In this document: one piece after another, positions 4,099 to 37,458 of the stretch
Numbering within the stretch: the stretch's first letter is position 1
Layout of the letters: each line of letters starts with the position of its first letter
Program-made: the position numbers and the translations under genes
The notes under the pieces: model-generated
Told to the model about the DNA's origin: nothing
The model's input: only the letters and a program-made list of their open reading frames with translations
Database searches by the model: none
Origin: an uncultured Ruminiclostridium sp.
Lineage (GTDB): Bacteria; Bacillota; Clostridia; Oscillospirales; Ruminococcaceae
NCBI GenBank assembly: GCA_947623915.1
Contig: CANQIB010000001.1
Location: 186,001-250,000, forward strand
Reading direction: 5' to 3'
Length of the DNA stretch: 64,000 bases

Positions 4099-4992
4099 TT
4101 GTCTGAAAAAAAATACAAAGGCATAATAACAAAAGCTGTCGGGGGTAACTACGATGTAGTCACCTCCGACGGTGTTATATGCTGCGCGGCACGCGGTATA
4201 TTCCGCAAAAATAAGATCTCGCCCTGCGCCGGCGACAATGTTACGGTAGAGCTTAACGGCTCCGACCGACCTGTTATAACCGAGATAGACGAACGCAAAA
4301 ACCATCTTATACGTCCGCCTTTGTCAAATCTTGACTGCGTTTTGACGGTCATATCTTCGGTAGAGCCTTTGCCTAACCCGTTTGTCACGGATAAGCTCAT
4401 TTCCGTATTTGAAAGTAAAGCTATAGAGCCTATCATCGTCATGACCAAAAATGATATAAAAGCGTGCGAGGAGTTTGCCGAGATTTATAAAAGCGGCGGC
4501 TTTAAGGTGATATTCAGCGATGAAAGCGGAGCGGGAAGCGACGAGATACTTGCGGCGATAAAGGGAAAGCTGTCCGCTTTGATAGGAAATTCCGGCGTAG
4601 GAAAATCCACGCTGATAAACCGAATATTCCCCGAACTGGCTTTGGACACCGCGCAGATAAGCAAAAAGCTGGGCAGAGGCAGACACACCACCCGACAGGT
4701 AGAGCTGTACGAATTGCCGGACGGCGGATATTTGGCGGATACGCCGGGATTTTCCACGGTCGAGATAAGCAGATACGGGTATGTGGATAAGGCGCAGTTA
4801 CAGTATACGTTCAGAGAATTTAAGGAATATATAGGGCATTGCAGATACAACGACTGCGTACATTTGAAAGAGAGCGGCTGTGCCGTGACGGACGCCGTAA
4901 AGCAAGGGAAAATAAACGTTTCGCGTTATAATTCATATGTACGGCTTTTTGAGGAAGCAAAAAAATTAAACGACTGGGAATTTAAGGAATAA
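4099..4992 (+). CDS. rsgA: Ribosome small-subunit-dependent GTPase RsgA (CpgA/YloQ)
   Basis: This circularly permuted GTPase helps late maturation of the 30S subunit. An N-terminal OB-fold comes first, then the G motifs in permuted order: TKND (G4), GNSGVGKSTL (G1) and DTPGF (G3). The C-terminal zinc site is visible as Cys and His residues around GHCRYNDCVHLKESGC. The length of 297 aa is normal. The start is TTG 4099 with GAGAGG about ten bases upstream; no ATG fits. In Bacillus rpe lies between rsgA and thiN; here thiN follows after 6 bp, so rpe is absent from this operon. Confidence 0.95.
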   Translation: MSEKKYKGIITKAVGGNYDVVTSDGVICCAARGIFRKNKISPCAGDNVTVELNGSDRPVITEIDERKNHLIRPPLSNLDCVLTVISSVEPLPNPFVTDKLISVFESKAIEPIIVMTKNDIKACEEFAEIYKSGGFKVIFSDESGAGSDEILAAIKGKLSALIGNSGVGKSTLINRIFPELALDTAQISKKLGRGRHTTRQVELYELPDGGYLADTPGFSTVEISRYGYVDKAQLQYTFREFKEYIGHCRYNDCVHLKESGCAVTDAVKQGKINVSRYNSYVRLFEEAKKLNDWEFKE

Positions 4993-4998
4993 AAGAGG

Positions 4999-5622
4999 GT
5001 GGAAACTATCAAGCGGTGTTTTATAGTTTGCGCAGGTCCTGAGGGCTGCGGCAGCGCATTTATCCCGAAAGACAGCTTTGTGATATGCGCGGACGGCGGA
5101 TACGAAAAGGCAATGGCGGCAGGTATTCGCCCCGACTTGCTGATAGGTGATTTTGACAGCATCGGTGCTATGCCAGACGACGTGAAAGAAATAATAAAAG
5201 CTCCCTCGCATAAGGATCAAACCGATACGCTGCTTGCGGTGATGACGGCGGAAGAAAGAGGATTTACCGATATTACCCTGCTCGGCGCTTGCATGGGTAG
5301 GGTAGACCATACCATAGCCAACCTCCAGACGTTAAAATACATGAGCAAACGGGGATTAAAGGGAAGAATAGCAGGAGAATGTACCGACGCTTTTTTTCTT
5401 AAAGACGGCAGTATAGAGCTTGCCCCCGACAAAAGCCGCTACCTGTCGGTTTTTTCTTTAACGGACAAAAGCGAGATAAGCATACGGGGAGCGGAATATC
5501 CGTTGGAGCATTATATTATGAGCGACAGCGAGCCGATAGGAGTAAGCAACGAATTTTGCGATACGGTATGTAAAATAACCGTATACAGCGGTGAAGTTAT
5601 AGTCCTGACCGTCAAAAAGTAA
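4999..5622 (+). CDS. thiN: Thiamine pyrophosphokinase
   Basis: This enzyme transfers pyrophosphate from ATP to thiamine to give thiamine pyrophosphate. Family motifs are ICADGGYEKA, the substrate-site string PDLLIGDFDSIG, KDQTDT and LGACMGRVDHTIANL. The length of 207 aa is normal. The start is a GTG 7 bp after the rsgA stop; AAGGA within the end of rsgA is the likely ribosome site, giving translational coupling. Gene order rsgA-thiN-spoVM is the conserved Firmicutes arrangement. Confidence 0.94.
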   Translation: METIKRCFIVCAGPEGCGSAFIPKDSFVICADGGYEKAMAAGIRPDLLIGDFDSIGAMPDDVKEIIKAPSHKDQTDTLLAVMTAEERGFTDITLLGACMGRVDHTIANLQTLKYMSKRGLKGRIAGECTDAFFLKDGSIELAPDKSRYLSVFSLTDKSEISIRGAEYPLEHYIMSDSEPIGVSNEFCDTVCKITVYSGEVIVLTVKK

Positions 5623-5684
5623 CATATTTTCCGTCCGCGGAATAAAGTGTAGTAGGCTTTAGGCGATCCGACGGAGGGAAAAAA

Positions 5685-5843
5685 ATGAGGCACCGCAATA
5701 ATCGCAAAAATATCATACCTGCTTTGATTTTGGCGTGTATCGGAGCGCTCATTTGCATAACATACCTTTCCGCCGAGGTAATGCTGCTGGTTTTAGCGGT
5801 AATACTTATCGCCTTGGGCGTGTGGCTGTTATTCTGCGGATAA
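5685..5843 (+). CDS. 52-residue hydrophobic protein, probable two-helix membrane protein
   Basis: I do not recognise the family. The protein starts with a basic segment (MRHRNNRKN) followed by two hydrophobic stretches (about 10-29 and 32-51) separated by a short polar turn, which suggests a hairpin of two membrane helices. A strong ribosome site (GGAGGG) precedes the ATG. It lies between thiN and spoVM in the same direction, so it could be a small spore-membrane protein, but that is only inferred from position. It is too short for most gene-calling cut-offs. Confidence 0.7.
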   Translation: MRHRNNRKNIIPALILACIGALICITYLSAEVMLLVLAVILIALGVWLLFCG

Positions 5844-5861
5844 CGAAAGAGAGGTACATAT

Positions 5862-5945
5862 ATGAAAATAGTTGTCTGGAAAAGCCCAAAATTTTTAGCA
5901 GGTTTTTTACGTTTTTTCTTTAAAATAAAAAAGACCGAAGCGTAA
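5862..5945 (+). CDS. spoVM: Stage V sporulation protein SpoVM (27 aa)
   Basis: SpoVM is a tiny amphipathic helix that marks the convex forespore membrane and recruits SpoIVA for coat and cortex assembly. The encoded peptide MKIVVWKSPKFLAGFLRFFF (then seven more, mostly charged, residues) has the family pattern MKxxxxKxPKFLxGxxR and the usual length of 26-27 residues. A ribosome site (AGAGAGG) precedes ATG 5862. Location downstream of prkC-rsgA-thiN is where spoVM lies in Bacillus. A rho-independent terminator follows directly, closing the operon. Recognition rests on motif, length and synteny together. Confidence 0.88.
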   Translation: MKIVVWKSPKFLAGFLRFFFKIKKTEA

Positions 5946-5954
5946 CGACCTACG

Positions 5955-5993
5955 AAAATATCCGTCCGTGTGTATAAAACGGACGGATATTTT
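5955..5993 (+). terminator. Rho-independent terminator after spoVM
   Basis: A perfect stem (AAAATATCCGTCCG pairing with CGGACGGATATTTT) with a short A/T loop lies 10 bp after the spoVM stop. The U-rich 3' arm supports termination of the rlmN to spoVM operon. Confidence 0.85.
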
Positions 5994-6044
5994 CGATTTA
6001 TGGGGGAAATTTATACTTAACGTAAATTTTTTTAAAAAAGGGGG

Positions 6045-6073
6045 TTGACAAAATCAAAACATTATGGTATACT
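6045..6073 (+). promoter_or_regulatory. Sigma-A promoter of the initiator tRNA
   Basis: TTGACA at 6045-6050 and TATACT at 6068-6073 are separated by exactly 17 nt, and the tRNA begins 27 bp further on. Confidence 0.88.
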
Positions 6074-6100
6074 TGTAAAGCATTCAGAAGAAAGATATAT

Positions 6101-6175
<75 letters not shown>

Positions 6176-6176
6176 T

Positions 6177-6207
6177 AAATCGGCAGGACATACGTCTTGC
6201 CGATTTC
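6177..6207. terminator. Terminator between tRNA-fMet and ylbJ
   Basis: A 13-bp stem (AAATCGGCAGGAC with GTCTTGCCGATTT, one G-U pair) with T-rich sequence after it lies between convergent transcription units and could serve both. Confidence 0.8.
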
Positions 6208-6216
6208 TTTATCTCC

Positions 6217-7269
6217 TCATGTTTTCCTTTTCAACGGCGTTATATAGGACAATAATATGACCGTCATGGAAAGTACGCATATTGTAACTAACGGGTCGTC
6301 TATAAGAACAGACGGAGCATAAAATCCCGAAGTCGAAACGCTTGGCTCAAATCCGAAAATACAGGTGAGCGCAAAGCATATCAAACCCGACAGCGCGGCG
6401 GAAATCATACGGACCGCCGTAAATTTCAAAGCGTTTAATTTAAAATCGCTCAGCGCAAGGACTTGGAAAATAACGCATATACCTCCGAACGATACCAGCG
6501 CCGCGGCGACAGGCAGCGGCAGCGCCGCTCCCGAATTTTTTATGTTCGTTATCTCCCAAACGCTCATTATCACCGTGTTTACTATTTTCCCGTCGGATAA
6601 ATTTATTCCGAGATACCGTATCAATTCCAATACAGTATTGAACATTATCATTGAAAGACATACCGTAAGCAAAGCGCTGCCGGTAGACATAAGGCTCTTT
6701 TTTACCGTTGCCGCCGAAAGATCCGGCGCTCTTTTTTTTATATTTTTTTCGGGTTTAAATTTAAACGTCATAAACGCGCCAATAATAAAATTAGCGGTAA
6801 GGCAGGCTATAAAAACATACATTCCCGCCTGAAAGCTGTTATACACGGTAAAACCTACCACTCCCGCGATGAACGCCGGACCGCTGTTATAACAAAAGAG
6901 CGCACAGCTTTCCGCAATTTCGTTATATTTTTTATTTTGCGCAATCAGAGTGCTTATCAGCTTCACTCCGACAGGATAGCCGCCTATTTGGCTCATTGCA
7001 AAAACGCTGAACATCGCGCTGTCCAGCTTTATGATATGCCGTAATATGTACCATAAAGGCATGAATATAAGATTTCCCAGTCCGCTTTGAGTAAGCAGAG
7101 TGCAAAGCATCATATATCCGAAAAGAGACGGTATAAGTGAATTAAGACATACGTCGGTGCAGGCTATGACCGCTTGGGATACGCCTTTACTGTCGCTTAC
7201 CAGCATTACTGACAGTAAAAGTCCCAGCAGGGCGAAAAGCAGCACTTTTATTTTTTCCTTTTTGTTCAT
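6217..7269 (-). CDS. ylbJ: YlbJ-like sporulation integral membrane protein (nucleoside-recognition/GATE family)
   Basis: This is a polytopic membrane protein of 350 aa with about eight hydrophobic segments. It carries the family-typical SQIGGYPVGVKLI and the CYNSGPAFIAG segment. YlbJ is produced in the mother cell and is needed for heat-resistant spores in Bacillus; its transported substrate is unknown. AAGGAT precedes the ATG. It lies between a tRNA and yqfC, transcribed alone from the opposite strand. The assignment is by recalled family features; a related spore-maturation or gate protein cannot be excluded. Confidence 0.75.
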   Translation of the reverse strand: MNKKEKIKVLLFALLGLLLSVMLVSDSKGVSQAVIACTDVCLNSLIPSLFGYMMLCTLLTQSGLGNLIFMPLWYILRHIIKLDSAMFSVFAMSQIGGYPVGVKLISTLIAQNKKYNEIAESCALFCYNSGPAFIAGVVGFTVYNSFQAGMYVFIACLTANFIIGAFMTFKFKPEKNIKKRAPDLSAATVKKSLMSTGSALLTVCLSMIMFNTVLELIRYLGINLSDGKIVNTVIMSVWEITNIKNSGAALPLPVAAALVSFGGICVIFQVLALSDFKLNALKFTAVRMISAALSGLICFALTCIFGFEPSVSTSGFYAPSVLIDDPLVTICVLSMTVILLSYITPLKRKT

Positions 7270-32001: not shown

Positions 32002-32030
32002 TTGACAAAATTGCCGAAACACTATATAAT
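32002..32030 (+). promoter_or_regulatory. Promoter of nrdD
   Basis: Consensus TTGACA and TATAAT with a 17-nt spacer. Confidence 0.9.
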
Positions 32031-32095
32031 ATTTATTGAGTTTTGCAGATACACAACATATTGTGGTCATTCTTTATTACAGAGAGGAAATTGAA

Positions 32096-34360
32096 ATGCT
32101 TACAAGGATCCAAAAAAGAGATGGACGCACCGTACCGTTCAATATTGAAAAAATCGCCGATGCGATATATAAAGCGGCGCGTGCGGTGGGAGGAAATGAT
32201 TACAACGAGGCAAGCGCGCTTGCCGAAAAGGTATGCGAATACCTGGAGCAGACCATTCCGCAGGGTGAATTTCCTACGGTGGAAGTGGTACAGGACGCGG
32301 TCGAAAAAACACTTGTCGAAAACGGACACGCCAAGACCGCGAAAGCGTACATATTATACAGGGCGGACCGTACCCGCGTAAGAGAAATGAATACGGGTCT
32401 GATGAAGATATACGAGGACCTTACCTTTAAAGCGGCGCGTGACTGCGATATCAAGCGCGAAAACGCGAATATCGACGGCGATACCGCGATGGGAACGATG
32501 CTTAAATACGGTTCCGAGGGCGCAAAGCAGTTCAATGAAATGTATGTACTCGCTCCCGAACATTCCAAGGCGCACTTAGAGGGAGATATCCATATACATG
32601 ACCTTGACTTTTTGACGCTCACCACCACCTGCTGTCAGATAGACCTTATAAAGTTGTTTAAAAACGGATTTTCCACCGGTCACGGCATACTCAGAGAACC
32701 CAACGAGATAGGCAGTTATTCCGCTCTCGCGTGCATAGCGATACAGTCCAACCAGAACGACCAGCACGGCGGACAGTCCATACCGAATTTTGACTATGCG
32801 ATGGCGGGCGGCGTAAAAAAGACCTATAAACACAGATATACTCAAAACATAATACGCGCCATTGAGCTTATCGGCGGTGTAGACGACGCCATAACCGTAG
32901 AGCCCAAGGTAAAGGCGTATATGAAAAAGCTGGAGGACGAGCAGCAGCTTACCCCCATAATTGCCAACGATAACGGTTTTTCCGCCGCAGAAAAGCCCTA
33001 TATAAAGGAAATATGCCCCGATATTACAGACGATGTGATAGAGCGTATACAGAAATTTGCGTTAAAGCACGCTTACACCGAGACCGATAGAGCTACTTAT
33101 CAGGCTATGGAGGCGCTGGTACATAACCTCAATACCATGAACAGTCGTGCGGGCGCGCAAACTCCGTTCTCCTCCATAAACTACGGCACAGATACCTCGC
33201 CGGAAGGCAGAATGGTCATCAAAAATATACTGCTTGCCAACGAGGCAGGACTCGGAAACGGCGAAACGCCTATTTTCCCGATACATATATTCAAGGTAAA
33301 GGACGGCATAAACTATAACGAGGGAGAACCGAACTACGATCTGTTCAAGCTGGCGTGCAGAGTTTCGGCTAAGCGCCTTTTCCCGAATTTCTCGTTCATT
33401 GACGCTCCGTACAATCTTCAATACTATAAGCCCGGCGATTACAATACGGAAATCGCTTACATGGGCTGCCGCACGCGAGTAATAGGAAACGTTCACGACC
33501 GTTCCAGAGAGATAGTCACCGGCAGGGGAAATCTTTCCTTTACTTCCATAAATCTGCCCAGACTCGGCATACTTGCGGGCGGAGATATAGTTAAATTCTT
33601 TGAACTGCTTGAAGACAAGATGAATCTTGTTATTGACCAGTTGCTGTACAGATTTAAGATACAGTCGCAGAAAAAGGTCAAGAATTTCCCGTTCCTTATG
33701 GGGCAGGGAATATGGATAGATTCCGACAGGCTCAGCCCGAACGACACCGTGGGCGAAATACTGAAGCACGGCACGCTTTCCATGGGCTTTATAGGACTTG
33801 CGGAGTGCCTTAAATCGCTTATAGGCGTACATCACGGAGAAAGTGAAGAGGCGCAGCGTCTGGGACTTAGGATAATTACCCGTATGCGTGCAAGAATGGA
33901 CGAGGAAAGCAAGAAAACGGGGCTTAACTTCTCGCTGCTTGCAACTCCCGCAGAGGGACTTTCGGGACGGTTCGTTCGTATCGACCGCAAGAGATTCGGC
34001 AAGATAGAGGGCGTTACCGACAGAGATTATTATACCAACTCTTTCCATATCCCCGTTTATTTCCCGATAAACGCATTCAAAAAGATAAAGCTGGAAGCTC
34101 CGTATCATGAGCTTACCAACGCCGGACATATAAGCTATGTTGAATTAGACGGCGACCCGCTTGAAAATCTTGAAGCGTTCGAGCAGATAATAAGATGTAT
34201 GAAAGAGTCGGGTATCGGTTACGGCTCGATAAATCATCCGGTTGACAGAGATCCGTGCTGCGGATTTACCGGCATAATCGGCGACGTTTGTCCTAAATGC
34301 GGAAGAAGCGACCACGGCGACAATACCAGATGTGAGCGCATACCGAGGATCAAAGTTTGA
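32096..34360 (+). CDS. nrdD: Anaerobic (class III) ribonucleoside-triphosphate reductase missing the glycyl-radical C-terminus
   Basis: NrdD reduces ribonucleotides to deoxyribonucleotides in anaerobes using a glycyl radical. The 754-aa protein begins with an ATP-cone (RIQKRDGRTVPFNIEKIADA) and has the catalytic core with CCQIDL, SNQNDQHGGQSIPNFDY, YMGCRTR and GSINHPVDRDP. The zinc-site Cys (CCGF, CPKCG) are present. It then ends RCERIPRIKV, exactly where relatives continue with the radical loop RITGYLVG and about 25 more residues. No frame downstream restores that loop before the terminator at 34387. No activase gene nrdG is adjacent. ATG 32096 follows AGAGAGG. Confidence 0.9.
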   Translation: MLTRIQKRDGRTVPFNIEKIADAIYKAARAVGGNDYNEASALAEKVCEYLEQTIPQGEFPTVEVVQDAVEKTLVENGHAKTAKAYILYRADRTRVREMNTGLMKIYEDLTFKAARDCDIKRENANIDGDTAMGTMLKYGSEGAKQFNEMYVLAPEHSKAHLEGDIHIHDLDFLTLTTTCCQIDLIKLFKNGFSTGHGILREPNEIGSYSALACIAIQSNQNDQHGGQSIPNFDYAMAGGVKKTYKHRYTQNIIRAIELIGGVDDAITVEPKVKAYMKKLEDEQQLTPIIANDNGFSAAEKPYIKEICPDITDDVIERIQKFALKHAYTETDRATYQAMEALVHNLNTMNSRAGAQTPFSSINYGTDTSPEGRMVIKNILLANEAGLGNGETPIFPIHIFKVKDGINYNEGEPNYDLFKLACRVSAKRLFPNFSFIDAPYNLQYYKPGDYNTEIAYMGCRTRVIGNVHDRSREIVTGRGNLSFTSINLPRLGILAGGDIVKFFELLEDKMNLVIDQLLYRFKIQSQKKVKNFPFLMGQGIWIDSDRLSPNDTVGEILKHGTLSMGFIGLAECLKSLIGVHHGESEEAQRLGLRIITRMRARMDEESKKTGLNFSLLATPAEGLSGRFVRIDRKRFGKIEGVTDRDYYTNSFHIPVYFPINAFKKIKLEAPYHELTNAGHISYVELDGDPLENLEAFEQIIRCMKESGIGYGSINHPVDRDPCCGFTGIIGDVCPKCGRSDHGDNTRCERIPRIKV

Positions 34361-34386
34361 CGGCAAACGTAAAATTTAATATTCCT

Positions 34387-34416
34387 AAAACGGCAGGTGT
34401 TTATCTGCCGTTTTTA
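34387..34416 (+). terminator. Terminator of nrdD
   Basis: Stem AAACGGCAG / CTGCCGTTT followed by T-rich sequence. Confidence 0.85.
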
Positions 34417-34514
34417 TTTGTCAAAACAAAAAGGTCTTTTTACATATTACGGCGATTTTACGAAATAATATCATCAAAGGAGCTTTGAACAAATAACGAA
34501 AAGGGAGCAAAACA

Positions 34515-36737
34515 ATGAGCTATTATACCGATGATATTGATTTTTTGAGCGCGGATATAGACGTCAGGGACTATATAATAAAAAATTATACGCCTTACGA
34601 CGGGAACGGGGATTTTCTGGCAAAGCCGACGGAGGCAACCTTAAAGCTGTGGGATAAGGTCAAAGCGCTTATGCATACCGAAAGGGAACGGGGCGGAGTA
34701 TACGATATAGACGCCGATACAGTATCGGGGATAACCGCATACAAAGCGGGATATATCGACAAGGACCTTGAGAAAATAGTCGGCTTACAGACCGACTGTC
34801 CGCTTAAAAGAGCGATAATGCCTTTCGGCGGAATGCGCTCGGTGCGTAATTCTCTTGAATCGTACGGAAGAAAGACCGACGACGAGGTCGAAAAGATATT
34901 TAAATACCATAAAACGCATAATGACGGGGTATTTGACGTATATACCGAGCAAATGAGGAAAGTGCGGCATTCCGGCATAATCACGGGACTGCCGGATTCT
35001 TACGGCAGGGGAAGGATAATAGGCGATTACCGCAGGGTAGCGCTGTACGGAGTTGATTTTCTGATAGCTCAAAAGCGGCGAAGCAAGGCGATGCTGGAGG
35101 GCATACCCTGCGATGAGGAATATATCCGTCATTCCGAGGAGTTGAGCGAACAGATAAGGGCGCTCAACGAGCTGAAAGAAATGGCGAAGTCATACGGATT
35201 TGACATTTCCTTGGGCGCAAAGGATACAAAAGAGGCATTTCAATGGATATACTTTGCCTATCTTGCGGCGGTAAAGGAACAAAACGGCGCTGCTATGTCG
35301 ATAGGCAGGATCTCGACCTTTCTGGATATATATGCGCACCGAGATCTTGAAAACAAAAGATATACCGAAGAAGAAATTCAGGAATTTACCGACCATTTCA
35401 TAATGAAGCTGAGAATGGTGCGGTTTTTGCGCACGCAGTCATATAATGAACTTTTTTCCGGCGATCCCGCATGGGTGACAGAGTCTATCGGAGGTATGGC
35501 GCTCGACGGCAGACCGCTGGTCACAAAAATGAGCTTTCGCTTTTTGCATACGCTGCATGATCTGGGTCCCGCTCCCGAACCTAATCTTACTGTATTGTAC
35601 AGCAAAGATCTCCCGAAAAACTTCAAAGATTTCTGCGCCGATATTTCGGTGAAAACCTCCTCGATACAATATGAAAACGACGATATAATGAGAGATATAC
35701 ACGGAGATGATTATTCCATCGCTTGCTGTGTATCGGCAATGCGCACCGGCAAGCAAATGCAGTTTTTCGGAGCGAGGGCAAACCTTGCCAAAGCCTTGCT
35801 TTATGCCATAAACGGCGGCAAGGACGAAAAAAGCGGCGAGCAGATCGCTCCGCCGTTCGCTCCGATAAACGATGATATACTCGATTACGAGAAAGTCATG
35901 TATAATTTCGACCATATCCTTGAATGGCTGGCGGGGCTGTATATCAATATGCTTAATATCATTCATTATATGCACGATAAATATTGCTATGAACGTTTGG
36001 AAATGGCGCTTCACGATGACATTGTAAAGCGAACCATGGCATGCGGTATAGCAGGACTTTCTGTAGTTACGGACAGCTTGAGCGCGATAAGATACGCAAA
36101 GGTCCACGCTATAAGAAACGAGCAGGGAATAGTGGTGGATTTTCAGACGGAGGGAGATTTTCCGAAATTCGGAAACGACGACCGACGCGCGGACGCTATC
36201 GCCGTAATGATAGTAAAAGCGTTTATGCAAAAGCTCAAAAAGCATAAGACCTACCGCAACGCCGAGCCTACTCTGTCAATCCTTACCATTACCTCAAATG
36301 TTGTTTACGGTAAAAAGACCGGCGCGACACCCGACGGAAGAAAAGCGGGAGAGCCTTTTGCTCCCGGCGCAAATCCCATGCACGGGCGGGACATAAAGGG
36401 CTGCGTTGCGGCAATGCGGTCGGTGGCAAAGCTGCCGTACAGATATTCGGTTGACGGCATATCGTACACTTTCTCGATAATACCCGACGCTTTGGGAAAA
36501 GAGGACGCCGACAGGAGAGAAAACCTTGTATCTTTGCTGGACGGTTACTTTGCACAAGCGGGGCATCATATCAACGTAAATGTAATAAACCGTGAAACTC
36601 TGCTCGACGCGATGGATCACCCTGAAAAATATCCGCAGCTGACAATACGGGTATCGGGATATGCCGTTAATTTCATACGCCTTAGCAGAGAACAGCAGCT
36701 AGATGTGATAAATCGCACCTTCCATGAAAAATTCTGA
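34515..36737 (+). CDS. pflB: Pyruvate formate-lyase (formate acetyltransferase)
   Basis: This glycyl-radical enzyme converts pyruvate plus CoA to acetyl-CoA and formate in fermentation. The 740-aa protein has the adjacent catalytic Cys pair in SIACCVSAM (near residue 402), [20 protein letters not shown], and [12 protein letters not shown]. The radical loop RVSGYAVNF (Gly near residue 714) is complete. It is separated from nrdD by a terminator and overlaps pflA by 14 bp. AAGGGAGC precedes the ATG. Confidence 0.96.
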
Positions 36738-37458
36738 CGGCGTAGCGGGATATATCCATTCGGTGGAAACTTTCGGCGCGGTAGACGGTCCTGGGATACG
36801 CTATATCGTTTTTGTTCAGGGGTGTCCGCTAAGATGTATATACTGCCACAATCCCGACAGTTGGAAGATTAAAAACGGAAAACCGGCAAATTCGGCGGAT
36901 ATAGCCGAGGATATAAAGGAATACCTGCCGTTCATCAAAAACGGAGGTGTAACGGTATCGGGCGGAGAACCGCTTTTTCAGCCGGAGTTTACCGCCGATA
37001 TTTTCAGACGCTGCAAGGCCATGGGATTGCATACCGCGTTGGACACCTCAGGAGCTGCCGAGTTTTCCGACGCGCTGAAGGTTTTAAAATACACCGACCT
37101 TGTTCTTTTGGATATAAAGGCATATGACGCGGGACTGTATACCCGTATTACCGGCGCTGCGGAAGATAAGGGCAAAAATCTGCTCGACCTTTGTGAAGCG
37201 GCGGCGGTAAAGGTTTGGATACGGCATGTCGTTATACCCGAATATACCTCAGACGAAAAGCAGCTTAATATGTTGGCTGAATACCTTTCGCGTTATTCGT
37301 GTATAGAAAAGGTCGAACCCTTGGCATTCCACAAGATGGGTGAATACAAATGGGAAAACGCGGAAAGGAAATATCTGCTTTCCGATACCGCTCCCGCGGA
37401 CGAAAAAACAATGGAACGAGTAAGAGAAATTTTCCGTTCAAAGGGCTTGAAATTGTGA
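36724..37458 (+). CDS. pflA: Pyruvate formate-lyase activating enzyme
   Basis: This radical SAM activase abstracts H from the PFL glycine. The 244-aa protein has CPLRCIYC (CX3CX2C cluster motif), [28 protein letters not shown] and LDTSGAA. The gene starts inside the end of pflB, so the two are translationally coupled. It is the only glycyl-radical activase in the window. The adjacent nrdD has none of its own. Confidence 0.96.

Follow-up and report, generated by a model that had tools for sequence, protein, structure and literature searches.

The window analysed here, a stretch of 64,000 nucleotides, carries an nrdD gene for the large chain of a class III ribonucleotide reductase (RNR) which ends before the glycyl-radical loop, and this raises the question of how such a chain could obtain its radical. 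To our knowledge, the radical glycine lies within the catalytic chain in the known class III RNRs. In the present study, we conclude that the window nrdD is very probably one half of a split class III RNR, with a separate 100-aa protein providing the loop in trans. Thus, an enzyme that normally consists of a single chain seems to function in this bacterium as a pair of proteins.

The nrdD gene (32096-34360, plus strand, 754 aa) is preceded on the same strand by a promoter at 32002-32030, read from the sequence, with TTGACA at 32002-32007 and TATAAT at 32025-32030 separated by 17 bp, which we take to be the -35 and -10 boxes of a sigma70-type promoter; the -10 box lies inside a half-conserved palindrome (CACTATATAATATT), likewise found by reading the sequence. 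The encoded protein begins with an ATP-cone domain at residues 4-93 (32105-32374, plus strand; PF03477, 81.9 bits) and matches the Pfam profile PF13597 (NRDD) with 638.5 bits over positions 1-539 of 562. Its closest solved relative is 8p23 (581.6 bits), matched at residues 6-254 and 281-708 of 743, and phage T4 NrdD (1h78) gives 274.4 bits; 8p23 is the NrdD of Prevotella copri. In a structure-relative alignment, the codon of Cys458 (33467-33469, plus strand), within MGCRTRV, falls on MGCRS of T4 NrdD, and Cys458 is presumably the finger-loop radical cysteine. The cysteine cluster CCGFTGIIGDVCPKCG (C721, C722, C732 and C735; 34256-34303, plus strand) shows that the zinc-site region is retained, and the cysteines of TTTCCQIDL are also kept; with Cys458 these are the other NrdD marks checked. 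An NrdD model built from 18 sequences had a mean pLDDT of 68 and was set aside.

The original prediction that nrdD stops just ahead of its RITGYL loop was confirmed. The otherwise complete core ends in ERIPRIKV (34334-34357, plus strand), the stub of the ERIRRI|TGYL junction which closely related full NrdDs pass as ...FERIRRITGYL, and a TGA stop (34358-34360, plus strand) stands where the glycyl-radical loop would be. The window NrdD thus ends ...CGFTGIIGDVCPKCGRSDHGDNTRCERIPRIKV, and a full-length close relative from the genus (L004) reads ...CGRSDHGDNTRFERIRRITGYLVGTVDRFNNGKRAEERDRVKH... at this place. Right after the gene, a terminator-like hairpin (acggcag..ctgccgt) with a T-run was read from the sequence at 34388-34419 on the plus strand. 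The RxTGY loop was looked for at the C-terminus of the chain and was absent, and a search for R[IV][TSC]GY in all six frames of the whole 64-kb window gave its sole match in the neighbouring pyruvate formate-lyase (PFL) at 36648, which bears out the claim that no frame after the stop restores the loop. Readthrough or frameshifting into a loop was rejected, no loop being present in the frames past the nrdD stop or elsewhere in the window. Directly behind nrdD, positions 34515-37458 hold a complete pflB with its own glycyl-radical loop and a gene for a pflA-like activase.

A scrap reading DGKRK after the stop had been taken as a hint of a deletion of about 40 bp. It can be read in another frame as claimed; as the leftover of a deletion it did not hold, for it is absent from the sister genes. 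A sister NrdD which also ends ...ERIPRIKV (L100, from G030) is followed by unrelated DNA past the stop, and the same was seen in L083, L084 and L082. A recent 40-bp deletion with a DGKRK remnant is therefore not supported, and we regard the scrap as a matter of chance and the truncation as old.

The loop was found elsewhere in the same genome (G000; 2.25 Mb in 25 contigs, 99.94% complete). An NRDD search gave two matches, the window nrdD and a loop-only place on contig 19, where a 106-codon open frame matches NRDD positions 533-562 with 28.7 bits (cut-off 26.2). The genome search for a small RxTGYL ORF that the original prediction had proposed thus turned up a 100-aa protein on another contig, encoded at L002:1339-1641 (G000:C19:16427-16729). 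A radical-domain protein acting in trans, as YfiD does for PFL, had been named there in passing, and it gains support from this separate ORF and from its co-occurrence with truncated NrdD in the genus, the family and viral loci described below. The protein (MVQVNVINGTLEQNEIDAYVRHAIDANPGKLINTIDLELDGDFVNMTYHFGEIPFDRIRRITGYLVGTLDRFNNAKKAEVEDRVKHSIVPESEEDIYISA) consists of about 54 new residues followed at its end by the loop FDRIRRITGYLVGTLDRFNNAKKAEVEDRVKH, in which the glycine of the glycyl-radical motif is Gly63 (RITG63YL). For the first 54 or so residues, searches of Pfam, NCBIfam and PHROGs gave nothing convincing. When a profile of the small protein was placed on 8p23, it covered residues 705-738 of 743, and the window NrdD reaches 708; the two matches take up complementary stretches, so that together the two chains account for the parts of the known enzyme. 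The small gene has a dN/dS of 0.03-0.10 among the four closest species.

AlphaFold predicted an N-terminal beta-alpha-beta-beta module (pLDDT 81-85) and a loop that is disordered when modelled alone (pLDDT about 50), a predicted arrangement which would be expected of a part that becomes ordered on its partner. Foldseek with the small protein gave nothing at E <= 0.001, and the top weak matches were ribosome hibernation factors. In one further genome of the genus (L063, G029:C10:50900-52300), the loop-protein module is part of an ORF of 206 residues whose N-terminal stretch resembles AcrIC5 (PF22147, 25.3 bits, cut-off 27), and this ORF is perhaps a mobile-element copy.

The comparison of strains, also proposed originally, was made over 60 genomes of the genus including the present one, and a near-complete NrdD ending at profile positions 533-540 was found in 26 of them, with the same stop position. 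In this count G024, with fragments only, was not scored as truncated, and pieces at contig edges in G007, G039 and G042 were not taken as whole genes. The loop protein is also present in 25 of these 26 genomes, the exception (G016) being 76% complete. A further eight genomes (G007, G014, G019, G026, G031, G047, G052 and G057), four of them at 80-86% completeness, encode the loop protein but no truncated NrdD; since these are 8 of the 34 genomes with either part, the loop protein is not always the partner of a truncated NrdD. Neither part was found in 18 genomes (fragments only in G024 and G039), and the remaining 8 of the 60 have no NRDD match. For the association of the two parts in the 52 genomes that have an NRDD match, a Fisher test, which ignores kinship, gives p 1.1e-6, but a kinship-free comparison has only 2 independent pairs and its sign test is not significant (p about 1); kinship explains much of the association in the genus. 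As a separate observation, a second NrdD type ending ARRTCGYIGTQ (loci L014, L020 and L023-L029) occurs beside the truncated type-1 NrdD, for example in G002, G033, G038 and G050.

Four of the loop-protein-only genomes (G014, G019, G026 and G031) encode the small protein beside a full-length NrdD, and Ruminococcus flavefaciens FD-1, Sporobacter termitidis and Anaerotignum sp. MSJ-24 likewise have the loop protein and a full NrdD. These cases would fit a small protein that serves only for the repair of oxygen-cleaved NrdD, with the truncated NrdD getting its radical in some other way. Against this stands the hand tally of the genomes of at least 95% completeness in which a truncated NrdD is the sole NrdD: the loop protein is present in 14 of 14 and holds the only NrdD-type loop found there. 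In those 14 genomes repair and supply would therefore be the same act, and a role in repair alone is quite unlikely, though it survives better than the other alternatives to a loop supplied in trans.

A slighter chance is left to the view that the window nrdD is a decaying pseudogene and that the cell depends on a different RNR or scavenges deoxynucleosides. The loss of an essential residue looks at first sight like decay, and two genomes of the genus (G022, 99% complete, and G046, 96%) have neither an NRDD nor a PF02867 match, so that they contain no recognisable RNR. However, the window nrdD compared with its truncated sisters L083, L084 and L100 has a dN/dS of 0.025-0.027 at dS above 1; strong purifying selection acts on the truncated gene, and the NrdD motifs checked are kept. 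The suggestion that another RNR serves the cell remained unsupported, PF02867 (the large subunit of class I and II RNRs) having no match in the own genome or in any of the 60 genus genomes. In addition, the search for nrdG found one gene, on another contig of the own genome (G000:C4, 148.5 bits, cut-off 126.1), in agreement with the remark that nrdG is not adjacent to nrdD. The recurrence in the genus, the co-occurrence of the loop protein, the lack of PF02867 and the purifying selection together make both decay and an assembly error very unlikely.

It is less probable still that the small protein serves the PFL and not NrdD. The pflB and pflA-like genes do stand directly behind the window nrdD, and PFL is the enzyme that YfiD serves. 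However, the small protein matches the loop of PF13597, the only Pfam profile above its cut-off (30.2 bits, cut-off 26.2), and PF01228 (Gly_radical, the PFL type) was not listed for it up to E 1. Furthermore, the window PFL retains its own loop, and viral contigs pair the small protein with nrdD, in one case also with nrdG. The weakest alternative, an assembly or sequencing error hiding a loop really present in nrdD, can be dismissed as having next to no probability: although the window comes from a draft assembly of 25 contigs, the same NrdD end recurs in 26 of the 60 genus genomes, TGYL is missing from all 20 additional truncated genes retrieved from the genus, whose stops fall 1-10 residues past the junction stub, and Ruminococcus albus 8 and KH2T6 have, beside the loop protein and one full NrdD, one NrdD matching only 1-532 of 562.

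Returning to the two-part enzyme, a palindrome (CACAACATATTGTG) was found by pattern search upstream of nrdD at 32052-32065 (plus strand), and the separate loop gene has the identical 14-mer in its own upstream region (G000:C19:16328-16341). The palindrome resembles the consensus of the NrdR box. The pattern CACNAYATNTWGTG has 3 places in the 2.25-Mb genome, and the reversed control pattern has 0 on the forward and 1 on the reverse strand. The third place (G000:C18:29739-29752; L106:1501-1514) is about 100 bp upstream of a minus-strand ORF resembling a sigma factor. With up to 2 mismatches to CACWAYATRTWGTG, the 250 bp upstream of loop genes contained the palindrome in 17 of 21 cases in the genus and in 51 of 79 in a wider named set, as against first-order random means of 0.2 and 0.9, respectively, and 0 of 78 in the 250 bp downstream. 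The wider set is the fairer test, because genus sequences served to define the pattern and the wider set shares few genomes with the genus set. The putative NrdR-type box common to nrdD and the loop gene looks like common control. In the own genome no nrdR gene was found by TIGR00244, and PF03477 (ATP-cone) matches nowhere but in nrdD; the NrdR-type boxes are thus retained in G000 though no NrdR gene was found in it.

The pairing extends beyond the genus. In a search of 197 genomes of the family, the matches listed include 28 genomes with a truncated NrdD, four of them from the own genus, and all 28 also have a separate loop ORF in a frame of up to 147 codons. Two gene layouts were seen among 20 truncated genes from other genera, the loop ORF being directly downstream in 12 and far away in 8. 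The far-away ORFs are of the type of about 90-100 aa, and the adjacent ones mostly have about 50-75 residues, such as that of L111 (MKNNNTNTQMIGEGVGFERIRRITGYLVGTLDRFNDAKRAEEHDRVKHNVSK). A stretch resembling a ribosome-binding site was seen by eye ahead of the first ATG in 8 of the 9 adjacent loci examined, and L340, L341 and L342, from three genomes that do not belong to the family, also show the adjacent layout. The profile of the small protein has no match in 52 of the 197 family genomes, and the 12 of these with an NrdD among the matches listed have a full one (1-562). In a sample of the phylum it matches 161 of 398 genomes; among the matches listed, most lie in long frames and are the loops of full NrdDs.

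Viral contigs gave 462 matches to a pattern, 397 of which encode relatives of the loop protein, and the best 80 of the 397 were kept. Among the 20 longest of these 80 contigs, which may be fragments, 19 have no other NRDD match and 1 has a truncated NrdD, and this suggests that phages carry the loop part alone. The 62-kb contig L240, the only one of 160 loci with nrdD or nrdG in its flanks by tblastn, encodes a truncated nrdD (4166-6004), the loop protein (6004-6294) and an nrdG ORF (6209-6757) in overlapping order, as well as a MazG-like and a virion protein (PHROGs). Relatives of its NrdD were collected from 34 viral loci with short flanks (3 kb). In 13 loci the NrdD lacks the loop and its stop codon lies within the contig; every one of the 13 contains a loop ORF in the 3-kb flank, at distances from overlapping to about 2.3 kb. 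The loop is in the chain in 18 loci, and none of the 18 has a separate loop ORF in the locus. The remaining loci are L334, with only a C-terminal part with the loop, and L307 and L333, which are cut by the contig end. The difference between truncated and full forms gives a Fisher p of 4.8e-9, with fewer independent cases than counted because several contigs are near-copies.

One natural pair shows how close the two forms can be. The split L301 and the fused L303 and L304 are colinear over about 1 kb (nrdD end, loop and nrdG) save for one stretch: between zinc site and loop, an insertion of 185 columns brings in a stop, a new start and the N-terminal module; one indel therefore separates the split and fused forms. 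A family tree of 80 NrdD bodies without their tails, built by a quick method, requires no fewer than 13 switches between the full and the truncated form. This tree left out the copies L031 and L093, L127 and L128 (without an extracted ORF), and L014, L020, L021, L023-L030, L034, L039, L052, L055 and L059, which are of the other NrdD type or were unparsed. A careful method on a genus tree of 37 rows, without L007, required 2 changes, and there a full clade (L003-L006 and L008) is nested among truncated ones. These counts are compatible with loop loss and loop regain alike.

As regards the mechanism, the analogy with YfiD and PFL suggests that the small protein would bind the truncated NrdD and place its loop in the empty slot beside Cys458. 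NrdG may then put the radical on Gly63 within the complex, and the radical would pass from Gly63 to Cys458 and back, as in a one-chain NrdD. The N-terminal beta-alpha-beta-beta module could be the docking or control part. The small protein probably originated as a replaceable spare part, like YfiD for PFL, and became obligatory once NrdD had no loop of its own; the genomes with a full NrdD and the small protein may represent the spare-part state, and those with a truncated NrdD the state in which the part is indispensable. Our best reading of the sequences is that the small protein is a glycyl-radical subunit on which class III RNR obligately depends in trans, and that it evolved from a spare part similar to YfiD. 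A broader proposal is put forward tentatively, and we hold it to be slightly more doubtful than probable: phages without an nrdD of their own may carry the loop protein, as a mobile and exchangeable class III radical subunit, to act on the NrdD of the host; exchange with bacteria, together with simple indels where the zinc site borders on the loop, may repeatedly have made a one-chain RNR into a two-chain one, and perhaps back; and the amount of the radical subunit, under its own NrdR-type box, could set RNR activity.

Compared with known enzymes, the window NrdD has the catalytic core, finger-loop cysteine and zinc cysteines of 8p23 and T4 NrdD, and it shares the ATP-cone with 8p23. Unlike these two, in which the loop ends the same chain, the present system has its loop on a second protein, which also contains an additional N-terminal module. 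By its core the window gene belongs to class III RNR, departing from it in the loop, and it is set apart within the class because the same-chain loop that defines the class was looked for and was absent. In class I RNR, NrdA and NrdB, the radical is housed on a different chain from the active site. The present system resembles NrdA/NrdB in this separation; the radical subunits are unrelated, and the radical here would be glycyl and not metal/tyrosyl.

The nearest parallel is the spare part of PFL. Like YfiD/GrcA and Y06I of phage T4, as treated in the available part of PMC8683613, the small protein is autonomous, has its loop near the C-terminus after some 55-60 further N-terminal residues and is also phage-borne. 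It differs from YfiD and Y06I in having the NRDD loop instead of Gly_radical and NrdD instead of PFL as its partner. YfiD is a repair part, and the small protein appears obligatory where NrdD is truncated. Furthermore, the N-terminal part of YfiD is described as disordered in the portion of PMC8683613 at hand, and that of the small protein is predicted to be folded (pLDDT 81-85). According to a table in that paper, a PFL that lacks its glycine attains a normal kcat when YfiD is supplied; the paper also reports that YfiD activation needs a PFL variant to be present (PMC8683613). By this likeness the small protein would similarly restore a partner without its own glycine, and may work like GrcA/YfiD but outside the PFL-type family.

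A split class II RNR, NrdJa/NrdJb, is named in the accessible part of PMC9669993. It is similar in that an RNR is spread over two chains, and different in that the cut is in class II. The cut between NrdJa and NrdJb is not known to move a radical-bearing residue. Phage nrdD genes are split by introns, inteins or homing endonucleases, or are fragmented, as stated in the part of PMC3653736 consulted. Unlike such pieces, the present case separates one defined domain, which is translated from a start of its own, carries a new module and may be encoded at a distant place. Searches of the open literature gave no description of a split NrdD of this kind or of a spare part for NrdD, and a trans NrdD loop is not mentioned in the available parts of PMC9531940, PMC9669993, PMC11528403, PMC4390871, PMC3653736, PMC11226230, PMC12288474 and PMC8683613.

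In 2021, YfiD and Y06I were the only validated spare parts, and others for glycyl radical enzymes were 'tempting to speculate' about (PMC8683613, in the part available). The spare-part question for glycyl radical enzymes now gains a concrete and testable protein family with natural full and split pairs as controls, one of which differs by the single 185-column indel in the aligned stretch. For this bacterium, the only recognisable RNR of the cell appears to keep its radical glycine on a separate, independently transcribed protein. The finding also offers a reason for the shortened nrdD genes and the small loop-only ORFs in Ruminococcus-like bacteria.
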